Positions 13,912 through 58,760 of a stretch of 64,000 nt of DNA are shown here, piece after piece. Position 1 is the stretch's first letter. Each line of letters begins with the position of its first letter. Both the position numbers and the translations under genes were made by a program. This stretch comes from Chaetoderma sp. LZ-2023a (lineage: Eukaryota; Mollusca; Caudofoveata; Chaetodermatida; Chaetodermatidae), in the NCBI GenBank assembly GCA_034401795.1, contig CM067374.1, forward strand, positions 133,198,300 through 133,262,299. Reading direction: 5' to 3'. The notes beneath the pieces were generated by a model, which saw nothing but the letters and a program-made list of their open reading frames with translations, was not told the origin of the DNA and did no database searches.

Positions 13912-46345
<32,434 letters not shown>

Positions 46346-48081: not shown

Positions 48082-48883
48082 CAAAACAATACATGATCAA
48101 TGGGTTCGTGCCGGTAGACCTTCAAATCCAAAACAAGATCATGAATGCCATACCCTCAGATCAGTCACTGTTTGCACAGCTAATACGAACTCAGAGAAAA
48201 ACATCACAGAAAATTCTGTCAACAGAAATATTGCATGCGAATGATAAGGAGTATCATGGAAATGATATAATATAGAAGGATGGGCAACTTACTCTGAAGA
48301 GCTAGGAACACCAAAGGAAAACCCCACATTTAATAAGGCATATTAAAGATCAGGTTGAGGATGATATAACCAACATTAAATCTATCTGTGGTGATGATCG
48401 GTCCAGTCCAGATCCCTTCACGTGGGATAATGTAAACAGTGCTGTGAATGAGCTACACCTGAAAAACGCCTCAGATTCTGATGGACTCTCATCAGAGCAT
48501 CTAAAACATGGTGGTGTCTTATTAATCCACACTCTTCTGATATTGTATATAATAAGATCATAGCTGAAGGAATATATCCAGATTGATTTAAAACTGGTCT
48601 GATTACATCAATCCATAAGAAGGCAGGAAAGCCGTTGACGATCCCAGATAATTACCGGAAAATCTCGGTGACATCCATAGTGGGAAAAGTCTTTGAGAAG
48701 CTTTACCTTAAACGCATTAGACCATTGATTTCAGAAAGCCAAAGTAATCTACAATTTGGTATCACACCTGGAAAATCACCATCAGTTGCAGCAGTACTAA
48801 TGACTGAAGTTATAGCGGAATGCAGAGAAAATAAAGTGCCCTGCTATGTTGGCTTTATGGATACACAGAAAGCCTTTGATGTT
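48082..48883 (+). pseudogene. LINE-N reverse transcriptase, N-terminal half
   Basis: Several frames give KASDSDGLSSEHLKHGG-like sequence (NASDSDGLSSEHLKHGG), then from about 48560 FKTGLITSIHKKAGKP, DNYRKISVTSIVGKVFEKL, QFGITPGKSP and the start of motif A, FMDTQKAFDV, ending at GTT 48881-48883 where DIRS-2 begins. Stops and frame changes occur upstream of 48630. From 48635 the frame is open to the insertion. Confidence 0.85.
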
Positions 48884-49163
48884 GTTATTACACCACAAAA
48901 ACATCCATTACCGTTCAATCACTACTTGCTAAATCAATTACCTGCATTTAGCTATCAGAATAAAAAATGTATGCCTGCATACACACCTCCCCATGCCTAT
49001 TCCTATTAATATGGACCCTTAACCAGGCAAATGGTTAAGTCCATCTCCAGCATAATGACAGATATAGACTGGCACCAGTCTATAATCCCTCATAGTGACG
49101 CTTGTCACTAAGCGCACTCGCGCATGCGCACTGGAGCCCAAATAGGAAACAGATTCACTTTTC
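48884..49163. repeat. DIRS-2 left inverted terminal repeat
   Basis: Complement of 55204-55537 over about 260 bases. Shared blocks include 'accgttcaatcactacttgc', 'ctccccatgcctattcctat' and 'gactggcaccagtctata'. Confidence 0.9.
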
Positions 49164-49673
49164 AATTATTCTGCAAGCAGAACAACTGCTAAAATATTCT
49201 CTAAGAGTTTTTTATGCTTTGCGCTGTGTCAGCTACACTATTGTCTTCTATATTACCAAGGAATATGCCTAATATGAATTCAATCCTCCCTAAGTTTTGT
49301 TTAGGAAGTTTATTAGTGGTTATATTGTATTTTATAACTATGTTCATATTGTTACCGGTTTTCATGAAAGATCGATTTCTCGTTTCGTGGTAACTTAATT
49401 ACTATGCCTATATCATCATCATCATTCTCTAGCGTTCGACCAAGAGCCCTTATCAATTTGCTTCTAGTGCATTATAAAGATTTCCATCTATTCCTATGCA
49501 GGTTTGTTTTTTTGTCGGTAGGGATTTTGATTTCTAATTTGAACTTTTTTGCTTTTTTTAGAAGTGCGTTTTATGTTTCTAGTCTCCTTTTTACGATTTT
49601 CTAAGCAGTAGCTATCATTGTTACGCTTTTTTCGTTTTAGGAGTTTGGTAAATCGTCAGATAGGATTTAATGT
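49164..49673. other. DIRS-2 5' region
   Basis: AT-rich, non-coding sequence between the left terminal repeat and the gag-like start. Confidence 0.45.
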
Positions 49674-50620
49674 ATGTCATCGATTTGTGATCGCCATCAC
49701 TCAGCTGAATTTGCCGGACATGTCTGTGTGAAATGTCCTTTTTTGTACCCTCATACCGGTCGTTACGGAGGGGGAATTTTCTTTGCCGAATTCAGTTGCC
49801 GTACTAGTTCTATTGCGAGATTTGAGTTATTCGCGTCGGTCTTGATCAAATCTCTGGACGAAAGGATATCTTCTGATTTAAGGAAACTAAGAAACAGAAT
49901 GTTTCTTCCAGTTCTGACGATAGCCCGAGGACTAGCGGGCATTCCCGCAAATGGGGGAAACGATCCCTCTAACCTATGCAGGTTAATAAGTTTCCTTAGC
50001 AAAAGTCTAGAGTGACCAAGCTCTCGAAGGTGGGCTCATGTAGTGCACCAGGTCAAACCCACCTACGATTTAAGGGTGACGGGCATAACTCACAAGCAGT
50101 GGTGGCGGAGGCTGAGGCTGACGTCCATAAGGCTGGTCCTTATGCTAATGCCAATTTTTCGTTTATACCGGTCGTCAAGGTACTTTGTAGATTGCCCATT
50201 GCCAAGAATCCTAGTTTTGCTAGTTCTTCCGGTTCCGTTGTGGTGGACTCAGGTTCTCTGGATTCACGTTTATTTCCTTTTTTCGCTTCTTCCACTCCAT
50301 CAGATTCCATTTTAATTTCCGGTTTAGCAAGACATCCGGGTCGTCAGGATCTGGTTCTTTCTTCGGTTGCGTCTGTTTCCGGTAGGACTTCCGGTTTTGT
50401 AGGAAATCCAGGTCTTCAAGATCCGGTTATTACTTCCGTTCCATCCGTTTCCGGTATGGCTTCCTTTTTTGTAGGAAATCCGGGTCTTCAAGATCTGGTT
50501 CCTAGTTCCGTTTCCGGTTTCATGTGCGCTTCCGGAAGATGCATATCCGGGTCTGTTGGACCCGGCATTGCATTGTTCATCAATTTCCGGTTCCGGTTTT
50601 TCAGCTTCCTCTTCCGGTAA
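49674..50620 (+). pseudogene. DIRS-2 gag-like ORF1 region
   Basis: The ATG at 49674 leads to MSSICDRHHSAEFAGHVCVK and C. This resembles the DIRS-1 cluster (C-x-R...FAGHHCVAC) but has lost the later cysteines. A helical segment (LIKSLDERISSDLRKLRNRM) follows, and after a frame change a Ser/Gly/Pro-rich part built on repeats of VGNPGLQD. It is probably a decayed ORF1. Confidence 0.5.
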
Positions 50621-51110
50621 TTCTGTACATCCGGGTTGTAGGATCTTGAGCAGTTTCCGGTAGTCTACTTCCGGTTTATGCATTTCCGTTTCCTTTTTTC
50701 CATATCCGGATTTCGTACAGCCGGGGATAGGGTCATTTCCGGTTTTACCCGGCATTGCATTGTTCATCCATTTCCGGTTCCGGTTTTTCAGCTTCCTCTT
50801 CCGGTAATTCTGTAAATCCAGGTTGTAGGATTTTGATCAGTTTGATCAGTATACTTCCGGTTTATGCATTTCCGTTTCCTTTTTTCCACATCTGGATAGG
50901 GTCATTTCCGGTTTTACCCGGCATTGCATTGTTCATCCATTTCCGGTTCCGGTTTTTCAGCTTCCTCTTCCGGTAATTCTGTAAATCCAGGTTGTAGGAT
51001 TTTGATCAGTTTGATCAGTATACTTCCGGTTTATGCATTTCCGTTTCCTTTTTTCCACATCCGGATTTCGTACAGCAGGGGATAGGGTCATTTCCGGTTT
51101 TTCATGGATC
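50325..51110. repeat. tandem repeats rich in TTCCGG inside DIRS-2
   Basis: Three units of about 70 bases ('aaatccaggtcttcaagatc' type, at 50330, 50400 and 50470) are followed by about three units of 169-187 bases starting with 'cccggcattgcattgttcat' (50561, 50748, 50917). TTCCGG occurs very often through the whole stretch. Confidence 0.85.
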
Positions 51111-53317
51111 TTTCTGGTGTTCTAGGATTATCTTCCGGGTCTGTCTTCCTGTTTTGGATTTCAGGTGATAGAGAACTTCCTGGGGTCCAGTTTTTTTCTT
51201 CAGGTACTGTTTACATGTTCGCTTTCCTAGAATCTAGTCATCTTCTTGCCTAAGAATTAGTCTTATTTCCGTATTTGCTTAATATTGGAAATGTTTAATG
51301 GCTGAATTTATTCATACCGAGTCATTGCCAGTCTTGTAGTCTTTCTTAGAAGTGTAGTCTATTCAGACATTTATTCGTTTATCAGTGACAATTTTCAACG
51401 TAATTAAACTCTTCTGACTGGTTGCCGGATATGGGTTTTTTGTTGCAGATTATTTTATATGCGCATTTCATCAGCTGATAAGTCAGTTTGTATTCTACGC
51501 ATTATTTTGAGATACAATTTTTTCTTTCATCCAACTTTAGATGGCCAGTTGTCTTCGGGCCATTCAGCCTTTTTTCTCGCTCCTTTTACCTCTTATTGTC
51601 GGCAGGTTGACATATTTATTTAACCAAAGGGAGTTCATTTGTGAATGGGATAACCCTGATTCTTGCGTAAATCGTAGTCTAATTTTGTCAGTCGCTGAAA
51701 AGAATTAGATTCAGTAAGGGTTTCATAGGGATCATTATGAGTACAGGTTTAATGTCTACAAGAACAATATTCGCTTAGAAAAGATAATCAATCGGATAAG
51801 GGGCAGGAAGGAGGAATATAAGCCGAATTCTTCTTCTTCTGCGTTGATATAGTTTCGGTGAGTTCGTTTTGTTTTCATTTCTTTCACCCAGATTTTTGTT
51901 TGTTTTCCCTTTTCTAGCGTAATTTTTGTTCTATTTTGTCTGGGTTGCTGCGGGCCTTCGGATGGTGGTTTCGGGGGGGGGGGGGACTCGGGATTTGCTG
52001 GGTATTTTTGGGGCAGTTTGGCTGAGGGTTGTTGGTGAAGCCACCGACAATTTTCAGTCGGATTATTCCCGGACTATTCGGTGGGTCTTGGGTTTTTGCC
52101 CATTGAGGTTGTTGTCTGGGGGCTGGCGGTGGGCCAGTTGGAGTGAGGTGGGGGGGGGGGGGGGGGGGGTTGCGCTGGAGGGGGGAAGAGTGGCCGAGAA
52201 TCTTTGGATTTAAGCAGCCACCATCTATTTTCGGTCAAAATGTTTTCAAAATATTTTGCAAGTCCAGAGATATTACAGTTGTAATATGTCGTCTGCAAAA
52301 CTCAGTATTCACACATTCAGTGTTCTATCTTTCCTTTTATTGAGATTTCTAACACAATGTCATTTGTTATTACAAAGATGAAATTATTGATGCTAAGACT
52401 ATAAATATAAGAATCAATTAATATATTAAAATCTTTTAAGTTTTCTGCCTCTTGGCATAAATATCGAATTGTTTAGGATATCTAATTTATCAGCAAGCCT
52501 GAGCGGCTAGGCAACCGTTGATGTATTCAATACATTTTTTTTATTAAATCTCCTCCATTATTATACGATTTTTTAATTAGATAGTCTAATGTTTGCCATA
52601 GTTCTCTTAACAGGACATTGTCATGCATTCTATTCATAGAATTGTGATGACGGTCATCACAAATAAGTTTCCCTTAGTTCATGGAGATCTCAGGCTCATG
52701 ATTTGGCTATATCTTGACTCTAAGCACTCCCATAGACTTACTATGAGTTTTTGGTTTGCCACGATATCTGGTTAAATCTATATAAATAAAATTATCTATA
52801 GTTTTTGCAGAGTCTTTAGCATTTTTAATAAGTTAGGCTATACTGATATGAGCCTTTTCTGTCTCCATTCAGAGTAAGCGGTATTATTAAAATTTCCATA
52901 ATAAACGTGAGTTACCTCTTTAGTGAGGGCTAAGCATTATGATATAGCCCAGGATTTTTGGTTGGAGCATCATGGCATATGTAATCTATGTGTTTTCTAT
53001 GAGCAGTCCTCTTTAGCATATAGTAAGTTTGCCACTTATTTAAGGGCGGCCCTTATCAAAAGGGCTAGATATTCTTGGATCTAGAACCCTTCTCTGTAGT
53101 CTCTTATTCCAAAATGGTCTTCTGTTTCTTCTTATTAGAAGCTATTAGCTTAGAGGGGTTGTTGTTTTCTATGATTGTCAAGGAGTCTATAGAAGAACCT
53201 CTTCTTTGGAAAGTAGATCCAGGCTTCTGTTCATCGGTTGGATTGTCTGATAGGCTTCTAAATCTCGATTCGTTCAGTCATTGCCATGGGGTTTTCTTTC
53301 ATTTTTAGAAGGGGGAA
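51111..53317. other. DIRS-2 decayed middle region
   Basis: This is where RT is expected, but no RT motif was recognised on either strand. It contains an inserted G-rich segment with HP-B-like pieces (about 51930-52265; 'gttgttggtgaagccacc', 'caagtccagagatatt') and poly-G runs at 51969-51984 and 52150-52169. Confidence 0.5.
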
Positions 53318-53780
53318 TGAGGTTTAGTCGTATGGATCGTCCTCTAGTAGATCTGTTCGTGGCCTCTCTGAATGCTCAGATCTTCTCTTACATGTCTCCT
53401 TTTCTGGTCAGTCAAGCCTTGGCAGTGGATGCTCTGTCTCGGTAGTGGTCAGGAATGTTCGCCTATGCCTTCCCTCTAACGATTTTGATTCAGTTAGTCT
53501 TGAAGAAGGTCAAGGATCAGGTTTGCGAAATTCTTCTGATAGCTCCCTATTGGCCAAAGAGGTTTTTAGACCTTCTAGATTTTCTGGTAGATTTACCTCT
53601 TCTTCTTCCAGTATCCCAGGATCTGCTATCTCAAGTAAGAGGTCTTTGTGTGCATCCAAATCCAAAAATTTTAGTCTGTGTGTCTGGAGAATCTCGAGTC
53701 TGAGGTCCTCGAGAATAAGGTTTCTTCTGATCTCAGGAAATTATTGACTATGCCAGAAGGGATTCGACCCGTCGAGTCTA
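53318..53780 (+). pseudogene. DIRS-2 RNase H-methyltransferase-like remnant
   Basis: Reads VDLFVASLNAQIFSYMSPF, ALAVDALS, a TAG, then GMFAYAFPLTILI, VCEILLIAPYWPKR and LLDFLVDLPLLLP. This parallels DIRS-1 residue for residue in many places (VDLFAMKLNAK, MYAYAYPPTILI, VLLIAPHWPG). It is broken by the stop near 53443 and by later frame changes. Confidence 0.8.
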
Positions 53781-53879
53781 CAAGGGTCGACTTAAAATTT
53801 TTGGTGAATGATTTTCAGACCAAGGTTTCGTGCTCGATTCTGTTTCTATACCCCAAGTATTAGATTTTTTTATCTTATC

Positions 53880-54728
53880 TGTTTGATTATTTTCATTTGT
53901 CAGTTATTACGGTCATGGAGTATAGATTTTCTCTGGTGTCATCCCTTCCTTGTCTTCTCTATGCCGATGTAAAGGATACTAAGACTCTTAATAGCTTTAT
54001 TAGAGGTCTAAGTAATATTCGTCCTCCGATTGCTAAGCCTTTACCTTCCTGGAGTTTGGCTTTGGTTCTTCAAGTTTTGGCAGGTCGCCATTTTGAACCT
54101 ATTTCTTCTATCAGTATTAAGTTTTGTTTTGTTTTTAACTGTCAAAGCTGTTTTTCTTGTTGCTATAGCCTCTGCTAGAAGGTGTTCAAGAGATTCATGC
54201 TCTTTCTGCTGAAAAGGAGAGATTTATAGTTTCAGGAGACGGTTTGGTTTTATATCCCAGAAGGATTTTTTAAATCTAAAACTCAATCTAACCGCTTTCC
54301 TGCTCGTCTGATCATTTTAAAATCTTTTTCGTTTTTCGCCATCCGATAAATTTTGGTGTCCTGTTAGAGCATTAAGAACCTTCAATTACCGATCAGATTT
54401 TATAAGAGTCGTTCCATCTCATTTATGGTTTTCCTACACAGAAGAGTTATCTAAGCCGGTCTCAAATTCTTCGATTGCCAGATAGATTTGTGAGACAATA
54501 ATTAAGCTTTGTTATGAGATAGCCTCACTGGATCAAATTAATCTCTCCCTTATTAAAGCCGATGACGTTAGAGGTATGGCTACTTCTTTCGCTCTTTTTG
54601 ACGGTTTGTCTTTAGATGAGGTCATGCAGGTGGCAGGATGGAAATCTGAATCCACCTTTACATCCTTTTATCTCAAAGACCAGAGTGCAGCAGCTTCCTT
54701 CTTTCGTAACGTTACCATTTTTAACTAA
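53880..54728 (+). pseudogene. DIRS-2 tyrosine recombinase
   Basis: In three or more frames: EYRFSLVSSLPCL, TLNSFIRGLSNIRPPIAKPL, LVLQVLAG, AIASARRCS (box I arginine), IKADDVRGMATSFALFDGLS (box II; aspartate where DIRS-1 has the HxxR histidine) and AGWKSESTFTSFYLKDQS with the nucleophilic tyrosine present, ending FRNVTIFN and a stop at 54728. It has lost the box II histidine, whereas DIRS-1 has lost the tyrosine. Confidence 0.85.
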
Positions 54729-55008
54729 AAACGCCGAAGACTATTTACCAAGCACTTCCCACAATTTTCGTTAGGACTCTGCGTCTGTGAGAAATGGTGA
54801 GAGTCTTCTTTTGGTTTTTATTTATTTCTTTAAGTTCAAGTTTTCCTTATTTGCTAATCACGGTGTGATTGAGCTAAATCCACTATTATGTTATGTTATT
54901 AACATTTGGATAAGATTGGTTTAATTTTTATCCTTGTTTGTTGATTCTCAAATCTCCTCCCACCTAATGTTTAAATGGGGCACTGACCAAATCTACGGGT
55001 TTAGCAAG
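54729..55008. other. DIRS-2 3' non-coding region
   Basis: AT-rich sequence between the recombinase stop and the internal complementary region. Nothing else was recognised. Confidence 0.5.
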
Positions 55009-55009
55009 T

Positions 55010-55140
55010 AGTGATTGAACGGTAATGGAAGTTTTTGTGGTGTAATAACAACCCCCACAGACACCCCCCCCCCCCTGTGGGTTGGTCTGTTGTTTTATTA
55101 ACCACTATAAAAACATACTTACCGTTCAATCACTACGACC
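55010..55140. repeat. DIRS-2 internal complementary region
   Basis: The left half, 'tagcaagtagtgattgaacg' to 'gtggtgtaataac', is the complement of the element's left edge. The right half, 'ggtctgttgttttattaacc' to 'ttaccgttcaatcac', is the complement of the right edge. The centre contains the complement of GGGGGTTGTTATT, which is the circle junction. Confidence 0.88.
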
Positions 55141-55203
55141 CGGTCTCAACCACCCCGCGTGGTAAGATGTGAGAATTGGAATTTAATATTTAGCACTTAA
55201 ATT

Positions 55204-55537
55204 TAGAAAAGTTAATCCGTTTCCTATTTGGGCTCCAGTGCGCATTCGCGAGCATGCTTAGTGACAAGCGTCACTATGGGGGATTATAGACTGGTGCCAG
55301 TCTATATCTGTCATTATGCTGGAGATGGACTTAACCATTAGCCTGGTTAAGGGTCCATATTAATAGGAATAGGCATGGGGAGGTGTGTATGCAGGCATAA
55401 CAATTGTATTCTGATAGCTAAATGCAGATAATTGATTTAGCAAGTAGTGATTGAACGGTAAGTATGTTTTTATTGTGGTTAATAAAACAACAGACCAACC
55501 TACAAGGGGGGGGGGGGGTCTGTGGGGGGTGGGGGTT
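55204..55537. repeat. DIRS-2 right inverted terminal repeat
   Basis: Complement of the left terminal repeat, ending in a G-rich stretch and GGGTT next to the LINE-N codon ATC. Confidence 0.88.
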
Positions 55538-56581
55538 ATCTGGCATTCTTCATTATTGCGTCGTCTTTACCTCCTAGGTATAACAGGGAAGCTATGGTTG
55601 ATTGCAAATGAAAAGTACAGAAACATGTCAGCACAAGTCAAGTGGGAGGGACATAGAAGTAGAAAGTTTGCTGTCAAACAAGGCCTTCTACAAGGTGGGG
55701 TCACATCTCCTGATTTTCATAAACCATATGAGGATCCGCTACTAAAATTACTTGAGCAAACAGCAACTGGTCTACATATTGGTTCAATATATCTGGGCTC
55801 AATAACACTATGTGATGATAAGACAGTCCTAGATACATCCCCAGATGGGTTACAGGTGGGACTGAATGCTGCAACAATGCATGCAAATAAAGAACGGTAT
55901 GTTAATGGCATTGCCAAAAGCCAAGTGATGGTTTTCAATCAAGGCAAAGAAACAGAATATGAGTGGACGCTAAACGAAGAAAAGATGGACGTGGTAAAGG
56001 AATATAAACATCTGGGACTAATAAGAACAGACGACAAAAGTGGCCTAGGCAAAGAAATTTTAAGAAAAGCTCATGCAACAGCTTATTCATTGATGGGTGC
56101 TGGCTTTCATGGAATTAATGGACTACGCCCAATTGTCAGTATAAAACTATGGTCAACATATGTAATACCACGATGTATGTATGGACTGGATGCATTAATT
56201 ATACCAAAGAAGAAAATGAGTCAGATCACTACACATGAAAGGAAAACCTTGCCGCAATTGCAATCACTTCCAAATAGTTGTGCAAATTCACTGGCATATT
56301 TACTTCTCGGTGCACTGTCGATAGAGGTGCAAATTGAAAAGAAGAAGCTGACATTACTTGGTGCAATACTAAGGAGTGAAGGCGCTGTCGAACAACAGTT
56401 AGCAATTCGGCAGCTCGTTATGAAAAGAGAAGGCAGACACAGTTGGTTTCAAGATGTTGAATTGATTTTACAAAAATATCAATTACCATCAACCCACCTG
56501 CTGCTACAAGACCCATCACCTAAATGTGTATGGAAGCGCCATGTCCAAAAGGCTGTAAACACAGTAGTCCAGAGATGCTAA
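55538..56581 (+). pseudogene. LINE-N reverse transcriptase, C-terminal half
   Basis: Begins at IWHSSLLRRLYLLGITGKLW, which continues motif A of the piece ending at 48883. Then come FAVKQGLLQGGVTSPDF (motif B; RQGG reads LQGG), LCDDKTVLDTSP (motif C with Cys before the Asp pair), VKEYKHLGLI and thumb-like sequence (SIKLWSTYVIPRCMYGLDAL). The frame is open to a stop at 56581. Protein similarity moves to another frame near 56530-56580. Confidence 0.88.
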
Positions 56582-57093: not shown

Positions 57094-57457
57094 AATATCA
57101 AGTTAGTATAATTAAAGTCAATTGCACATAGAAAAATACGGTGCACTTTATGCTTTCTGGATGCTCCTACATGTATTTCAATAACAATGAACTCATTTAC
57201 GCGTCTGGTGAACATAAATTTACTCGTCTATGAACTGTGACCATTTACCTATATACAGATAGGAAAATCACTTGCGTGTGTACATGCATGTACATAAATG
57301 TCAGATTTAATGATTGTTTGCGTGTGTGTATAAAATATAATATATAATTAATGGAACTCCAGTAATTTGCGGATTCTAGAGATTCCCGGATAATACACCG
57401 AAAGGTGGTGCGCCAGACATTGGTGGAAACTCCAAGAACAGAACAGAACAGAACAGT
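57094..57457 (+). other. LINE-N 3' untranslated region and tail
   Basis: Non-coding. It ends with about four 'aacag' repeats directly before CR1 copy b resumes. Confidence 0.65.
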
Positions 57458-58760
57458 GCCTGTGGATTGGAAACTAGCCAACATCACGCCAATCTTTAAA
57501 AAAGGGGAAAGGACCAGCCAAGTAACTACAGGCCGATCAGTCTCACCTCATGTATAGGAAAATTCTTAGAAACATTACTTAGAAATCAAATCGTTGCCCA
57601 CCTAGAGAGCAACTACTTAATAAGCCATTCACAACATGGGTTTAGGAAAGGCCTATCAAACCTACATTGCTTTTTTGATAAAGTTACTACCCAATTAGAC
57701 AATGGACACCCAGTTGACATAATATACTTAGACTTTGCAAAGGCATTTGACAAAGTCCCGCATCAGAGGCTGTGCAAGAAAATTAAATCTCATGGGATAG
57801 ATGGGGAGATACTCCAATGGATTACAAATTGGTTATCAGATAGGAAACAGTGTGTCGTAATAAATGGACAGAAATCTAACTGGACAAGCGTAAAGAGTGG
57901 AATGCCCCAGGGATCGATCCTTGGGCCAATTTTATTTCTGATCTACATAAACGACATAGACGAAAACATTACAAGCCAAATTGGTAAATTTGCTGATGAT
58001 ACTAAATTAGGTAAAGAAATTCTGAACAAAGAAAGTACACTTAAACTCCAAGCAGATCTCCACAGAAGAAAAAGATTTGGGAATAACGATTCAGCAATCA
58101 ATGAAAGTGTCAAGACAATGTGAAGTAGCATCAAGAAAAGCAAACCAAGCCCTAGGCCTGATATATCGTACAATAAAATATAAATCCCGACCTGTTATTC
58201 TCCATGTTTACAAATCCCTCGTAAGTCCTCACTTAGACTACTGTATCCCCTTTTGGTGCCCACACCTACAAAAAGACATAGACTTACTGGAGCGGGTACA
58301 ACACAGGATGACACGCATGATCCCAGGTTTAGCAAGTATACCTTATGAAACACGTCTCCAGAAACTAAATCTTACAACATTGAAAACCAGGAGAATCCGA
58401 GCTGACATGATAGAAGTCTATAAAAGAATTTCTAACCAGGACCACATTAAGCCAAATGAATTCTTCACAATGGCATCTACACACACTAGGGGACATGCAC
58501 TTAAACTTTACAAACAACCCTGTCGACTTGATCTACACAAGTATTTCTTCACAAATAGCGTTGTTAATGTATGGAATTCTCTACCAACAGAAGCAATTAA
58601 CGCTCCAACATTAAATACATTCAAAAACAACCTAGACTCATTCTTCAAGTAACAGGGTTTTATATAGACCTAAGGTCGTCTAACTCCCAAAAATTGCAGT
58701 CACTTCTTCTACACTGAAGTATTTGACTACAATCACTGGTAAATCACTGGTAAATCATTA
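57458..58760 (+). pseudogene. CR1-type LINE copy b, downstream part
   Basis: Resumes at 'gcctgtggattgg' (VDWKLANITPIFKK). It shows QHGFRKG, YLDFAKAFDKVPHQ (motif A), SGMPQGSILGPILF (motif B) and FADDTKLG (motif C), all intact at the active site. It is broken by a one-base loss near 57505 and a deletion of about 132 bases at 58063 compared with copy a. The C-terminal part from 58077 is open: HLDYCIPFWCPHLQKDIDLL, MIPGLASIPYETRLQ, VWNSLPTEAINAP, DSFFK and a stop at 58652. The 3' end carries 'actggtaaatc' repeats. Confidence 0.9.

Follow-up and report, generated by a model that had tools for sequence, protein, structure and literature searches.

A DIRS1-like retrotransposon inserted into a LINE of Chaetoderma at a three-base core, and the letters found at the two ends of its relatives

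Introduction

When a circular copy of a retrotransposon joins the genome, which letters at the two new edges come from the circle and which from the site that was entered? This question is raised by a DIRS1-like element of Chaetoderma sp. LZ-2023a (assembly GCA_034401795.1, contig CM067374.1), which interrupts the reverse transcriptase (RT) of a long interspersed nuclear element (LINE). The stretch of DNA analysed, called here the window, comprises 64,000 nucleotides, positions 133,198,300 to 133,262,299 of the contig (G000:C16:133198300-133262299 in our locus numbering). In the published model, the circular junction of a DIRS element, 3 bp long, recombines with genomic letters identical to it, and no duplication results (PMC3266345).

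We propose, with a probability of about 0.8, that a tyrosine recombinase brought the element into the LINE, by a crossover at a 3-bp core between the genome and a circular DNA copy of the element. The other copies of the family suggest that the three letters at the left edge are those of the element and the three at the right edge those of the entered site.

Results

The element interrupts a LINE at a single GTT

The LINE reverse transcriptase lies in two parts on the plus strand. The left part, which includes the target GTT, covers 48587-48883 (Pfam RVT_1 positions 2-82, E 7e-10, in the open reading frame (ORF) 48587-48898), and the right part covers 55538-56581 (RVT_1 positions 82-194, E 0.023, under the curated cut-off). 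At the left junction we read GAT, the core GTT (48881-48883), a further GTT and then ATTACACC; at the right junction, GGGGG is followed by TT, the last G and these two letters being the core GTT at 55535-55537, and then by ATCTGG. Excising 48884-55537 gives GATGTTATCTGG, so that the LINE is interrupted at GATGTT-ATCTGG. The joined flanks form one open frame through QKAFDV-IWHSSLLRRLY, and on the RVT_1 profile the two halves meet at position 82. A preliminary description of the window, made from its letters, had given these junctions and claimed that removal of the element restores the frame; on reading the sequence, letters, coordinates and frame were all exact.

The same description had suggested examining uninterrupted copies of the LINE. 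We scored 40 of 958 first-look candidates in the host genome (2.44 Gb) and read the 39 best-scored other copies, among which there may be duplicates (over the stretch printed, L019 cannot be told from L020). None of the 39 has a gap at the joined point. The exact 12-mer GATGTTATCTGG is present in 33 and GATGTT in 37, and the six others (L013, L018, L019, L020, L034 and L038) differ by substitutions at this point. The insertion therefore neither duplicated nor removed target bases, and one GTT was gained beside the element body.

Could the junction have been produced by the assembly, or by a chimera? The genome is rich in these ends, with 1711 exact 53-mer left termini of this DIRS family, which would give such an error some material. 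Both flanks of one LINE rejoin exactly, however, and the same left edge adjoins dozens of unrelated flanks, and we consider an artefact hardly credible.

The element carries a copy of its circle junction

The element occupies 48881-55537 of the plus strand, 6657 bases with the trinucleotide at both ends counted, as delimited by its inverted repeats and by the empty sites. Its inverted arms, 48877-49163 and 55206-55492, are 90% complementary. On the plus strand, repeat comparison places the left terminus with its inverted terminal repeat at 48881-49163, and the right inverted terminal repeat, together with an extension that holds the G-tract, at 55206-55534 (letters and repeat comparison). The inverted repeat proper stops at 55492, and the extension pairs only with an internal region (55444-55531 with 55049-55136, 94%).

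Two internal complementary regions, both on the minus strand, lie between the arms. The left one, 55000-55052, is 98% complementary to 48881-48933, and the right one, 55050-55136 (55049-55136 as paired), is 94% complementary to the right terminus. They overlap on AAC at 55050-55052, which is the circle-junction core, GTT on the minus strand. Read on that strand the region is GTGGGGGTTGTTATTACACC, that is, the right end fused to the left end. This bears out the earlier claim that the element records its own circle junction and that GTT is common to circle and window target. Note that the right end of the window copy has a few letters (TGGGGG) more than its internal region.

At the circle junction GTT thus stands twice in tandem (GTTGTT), and the target has GTTATC. 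If the first GTT is used, the crossover gives GATGTT-GTTATT on the left and GGGG-GTT-ATC on the right, the letters found. The second GTT of the circle would match the target over more letters (TGTTAT), yet it was not used; from these letters, it seems to be the element, and not the length of the match, that determines where the crossover falls. Since circle and target both read GTT here, the letters do not show where in the trinucleotide the switch took place.

Left ends nearly all keep GTT, and right ends mostly read G(T/A)T

Left ends were read from 30 similarity-ranked loci (one being the window copy and one, L065, without a left end), from eleven more of the same kind, and from 24 plus 20 positional loci drawn from the list of exact termini, in which the first trinucleotide was not fixed. 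The 66 ends first read gave 62 distinct ones, and 20 more gave 19 (L217 dropped), the window copy being counted. The left core is GTT in 76 of these 81 ends, and in 39 of the 43 in the positional part. Among the 81 bases that directly precede the core there are 43 A, 19 T, 17 G and 2 C, and the flanks show a target bias further upstream, with A at -7 (44), A at -6 (40) and C at -5 (38). This preference beyond the core resembles a weak inverted repeat, AAC...GTT. Some members are nested in copies of their own family (L048 and L063, G000:C12:36575520-36576086; L085; L076).

Right ends came from 30 similarity-ranked loci, again including the window copy, and from 16 plus 20 positional ones; 66 were read and 62 kept, after removal of L079, L082 and L091 as duplicates and of L196 for its truncated end. 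The last G of the G-tract was taken as core position 1. In this register the right core is GAT in 14 ends, GTA in one and GTT in 47, of which some may be TTT, since the G-tract varies in length and the register of ends that begin with T is uncertain. The core is followed by T at the first place in 49 of the 62 and at the second in 38.

GAT is thus found in 14/62 right ends and 0/81 left ends (p 3e-6), and in the positional samples in 4/35 and 0/43 (p 0.04); for any core other than GTT the counts are 15/62 and 5/81 (p 0.003). All p-values for the ends were computed without L196. The preliminary description had expected a constant GTT at the junctions of other copies. This held well for the left edges; at the right edges 15 of 62 read GAT or GTA, and a GTT constant at both edges is ruled out by these ends and by copy L093, described below.

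We had first favoured ATT as the target core of the A-type right ends, and replaced it by GAT because these ends carry as many Gs as the GTT ends (6 in 10 of 12) and because in L093 the left edge lies ahead of the G. In a group of right ends the G-tract is short and 6-9 T follow it, next to flanks that are unrelated (L078, L079, L088, L089, L092, L099, L120, L121, L126, L127 and L131), and among such ends more Ts go with fewer Gs. We considered a T-rich subfamily of right ends; the preference for T-rich targets seen above may explain part of this group.

The internal junction keeps GTT whatever the right edge reads

The internal junction was searched in the 30 similarity-ranked right-end loci without naming the core, and was found in 28. 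It reads GTT beside the G-tract in 27 of these and GCT in L098, independently of the reading at the right edge; in L090 six extra bases lie beyond the GTT. Since the internal junction keeps GTT in this way, the variation of the right ends is probably not templated by the element; we infer that integration produces it and that rebuilding of the ends removes it again.

Paired ends and a target whose core differs from the circle

Next, left and right ends were paired by position and strand, giving 15 copies: the window copy, L054/L073, L045/L095, L057/L100, L101/L074, L102/L081, L103/L088, L104/L087, six more, and L093 with L179/L195. Partners lie about 5.1 to 12.7 kb apart, and the longer pairs may contain nested insertions. 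All 15 have GTT on the left, so that none lacks it at both edges, which had been named beforehand as a finding that would speak against a GTT core. Six have GAT on the right (L073, L095, L074, L087, L117 and L093), and the reverse arrangement does not occur. The discordant pairs thus run 6:0 in one direction (sign test, p 0.03).

L093 allows the target to be read. Its right flank is a high-copy host repeat, of which 23 unoccupied relatives were read. By script, 19 of the 23 have CTTCAAG-GAT-TTCAAC or a near form; of the others, L173 has GAT with a change before it, L158 has GAG, L168 GGT and L171 AAC. The left end of the occupied site reads CTTCAAG-GTT-GTTGTTACACC, and the element itself shows one more change; the right end reads GTGGGGG-GAT-TTCAAC. 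The entered site had GAT as its core and the circle GTT, with no bases duplicated and none lost; the left end shows the T of the circle and the right end the A of the target, which puts the switch after core position 1 and before position 2 at either end.

Does the recombinase require GTT in the target, the non-GTT right ends being later mutations? The window insertion fits this, as do the 47 right ends with GTT and most of the one-sided empty sites, where relatives matching the left flank read GTT (L052, L066, L069 and the second site of L048, other L048 relatives reading TTT). The unoccupied relatives of L093, on the other hand, are themselves GAT, at an empty site read from both sides, and random mutation would not be expected to put GAT in 14 of 62 right ends and in none of 81 left ends. 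We regard this explanation as very improbable. Because the L093 target core is GAT and the circle core GTT, three-base identity of circle and target appears, from the letters, not to be required. Of the earlier claim of a crossover at a three-base core, the precise insertion and the match between circle and window target stand, and a need for identity over all three bases is not supported. Discordant ends occur among published DIRS elements as well (Table 3 of PMC3266345), and we do not take the mismatch in L093 as a reason to place the family outside the DIRS1-like group.

Copy G also bears on target-site duplication: apart from its two halves it has 38 matches, of which 35 run through the joined point, at 70-78% identity and with their letters unread. 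Copy D (L101/L074, G000:C9:110825573-110831627) was set aside as an empty-site case: its relatives match both flanks without the 57 bases that lie beside its right edge. The one-sided empty sites bear the model out in part; those of L047, of L106 and, at its first site, of L048 were rejected as too diverged or as ending short of the edge; the L106 relative (76%) reads TAA.

Coding remains of the element and neighbouring repeats

Within the element, three tandem copies of a 169-base unit (repeat family D1) lie at 50538-51062 on the plus strand. Its coding remains were located with the ORFs of a second DIRS element of the window (22168-29101, minus strand), which is better preserved and retains ORFs for RT, RNase H and recombinase. 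The region that follows RNase H survives in broken form at 53323-53685, plus strand (tblastn, 48% over 123 amino acids, one internal stop, E 9e-26), and of the part that encodes RT, RNase H and methyltransferase only this stretch was recovered. Tyrosine recombinase pieces in shifted frames follow at 53867-54258, plus strand (tblastn, E 7e-23), and a probable recombinase C-terminal piece at 54558-54692, plus strand (tblastx, 56% over 45 amino acids; no Pfam match). Searched alone, the recombinase pieces of the window element had no Pfam match, and the last fragment brought nothing of use when compared with PDB sequences. RT was not found in the element with the RT ORF of the second DIRS as query at E 0.01, and on this ground the element is taken as a defective copy in which RT was lost.

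The second DIRS itself matches Pfam RVT_1 (E 2e-22), and its recombinase ORF, the query used above, matches the phage-integrase N-terminal domain Phage_int_SAM_4 (E 9e-5, under the curated cut-off). It resembles the element at 48881-55537 in its recombinase and post-RNase H regions, its inverted ends and its internal regions, which are here two regions separated by TTA (22488-22490), and differs from it in its ends. We rejected it as a second test of the edges: these lie in a tandem repeat, are not readable and were not matched to the TTA core. A long, GC-poor tandem repeat that can be read in several frames lies at 16967-19165 and also at 21125-22165 and 29102-29591. Two stretches of another LINE, 95-97% identical (44244-45675 and 57451-58754), flank the interrupted LINE on both sides.

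Discussion

We infer that a recombinase catalysed the insertion, that the core passed through a heteroduplex and that this was resolved with polarity. In the mechanism we propose, a circle with the core GTT would recombine with a target core that is GTT in the window and G(T/A)T in the family, usually preceded by a base other than C and followed by T. In the case of a mismatch at the middle base, the new copy would carry the base of the circle at its left end and that of the target at its right end. The heteroduplexes at the junctions would be resolved with one polarity, for example if a single strand exchange were productive and replication completed it. The ends of the next copy would then be rebuilt from the internal region, which keeps GTT, and right-end variation would not build up. 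Integron cassettes offer a comparison for one strand exchange completed by replication.

That integration is polar in this way, tolerating a middle-base mismatch and leaving the circle's base on the left and the target's on the right, is a tentative proposal to which we give slightly less than even odds. Several observations weigh against it or against the crossover itself. In the positional samples any core other than GTT is about as frequent on the right (5/35) as on the left (4/43; p 0.72), which lowered our estimate; since the overall frequencies do not differ there, the left/right asymmetry in these least selected data comes from GAT alone. About half of all ends, left and right, were drawn from similarity-ranked lists. 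Five of the 81 left ends have another core (CTT twice, and TTT, TCA and GCT once each), and one-sided empty sites with TTT (L042/L043) or GCT (L053) are found before a left GTT, the GCT being read in relatives 80-88% identical while a weaker relative reads ACT. Several right ends that run 6-9 T, such as L089, L099 and L127, are poorly explained by the model, and the uncertain register of T-first ends belongs here too. Among the paired copies the window copy alone was read through, most pairs being joined by position and strand only. The mismatch case closed with letters on both sides is a single one, L093, and in copy D 57 bases, missing in the relatives read, separate the right edge from the remainder of a short host repeat.

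Symmetric exchange of two strands is the standard view of tyrosine recombinases. It would leave a heteroduplex at both junctions, resolved at random, and the polarity would be a sampling effect. The non-GTT left ends, and the lack of an overall difference in the positional samples, agree with it. What it does not lead one to expect is that all six discordant pairs point one way, or that GAT occurs at right ends and at no left end.

Published families bear on the same point. Recounting Table 3 of PMC3266345, we found eight elements with differing start and end trinucleotides and a 3-nt junction (AmDIRS1 and BfDIRS2, discordant with 2-nt junctions, were left out). Seven of the eight start with the trinucleotide of their junction and depart from it at the end. 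The deviation is in the middle base in six of these seven (AcDIRS1 CAT, AcDIRS2 TGT, AmDIRS2 AAT, NveDIRS6b AAT, TnDIRS1a GAT and XtDIRS2 TAT) and in the third base in BmDIRS1 (ATA); the exception is AcasDIRS1, which has a left extension only. Section 10 of that paper makes no remark on this start/end pattern. With seven of eight elements also deviating at the end, symmetric exchange with random resolution seems to us unlikely.

The same entries speak to a further alternative, in which the element enters as a fixed unit, GTTGTTATT...GTGGGGG(G), at a preferred A-G(T/A)TTT site without any exchange of a core, the common letters being target preference. The nearly constant left edge and a right edge that is always target suit such a unit, as does the clear target bias, with C before the core in 2 of 81 ends and T after it in 49 and 38 of 62. 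It does not account for the overlap of the internal regions on the same three bases, nor for the families of Table 3 whose ends follow their own junction (CTT/CAT, TTT/TGT, ATT/AAT), so that the target follows the circle (PMC3266345). We judge the fixed unit improbable, and retain the crossover at a 3-bp core, with polar resolution as its tentative extension.

The basic finding, a clean DIRS insertion at a 3-bp core, is a good example of the known model, and families with GTT/GTT/AAC are in print (PMC3266345). What changes is the simple picture in which circle and target match over all three bases. The polar rule, if true, would apply to DIRS families of animals in general, and any genome that contains young copies would allow it to be read; where copy number is high and empty sites exist, as in this family, the order of strand exchange becomes countable, by asking which end keeps the bases of the circle. 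A literature search outside subscription papers found no work on the order of strand exchange.

Among known systems, the closest in their table entries are GaDIRS1, GaDIRS2 and SkoDIRS2 (GTT/GTT/AAC) and TnDIRS1a (GTT/GAT/AAC), a likeness drawn from those entries and not from compared letters. As in the window element, their ends are inverted, their internal regions overlap on AAC and they start with GTT, and their size range and tyrosine recombinase are similar; TnDIRS1a ends in GAT, as do some right ends here (PMC3266345). The window element differs from these GTT families in being broken and without a detectable RT, and its sequence, as far as is known, is a different one. The founding member, DIRS-1 of Dictyostelium discoideum, has the same architecture and a proposed rolling-circle/circle-junction integration (PMC3266345, PMC5633606), with TTA/TTA/TAA in Table 3 in place of GTT. 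It is reported to favour its own copies as targets, and its replication mechanism was described in a 2017 review as proposed and not fully proven (PMC5633606). More distant are the SE elements of Vibrio (strand-biased circularizing integrative elements), bacterial DNA elements with a 6-bp region rather than retrotransposons, for which we claim no common descent. They are alike in one respect: the crossover bases of the circle tend to one end and those of the target to the other, and their authors write of a strict order of strand exchange (PMC9345347).

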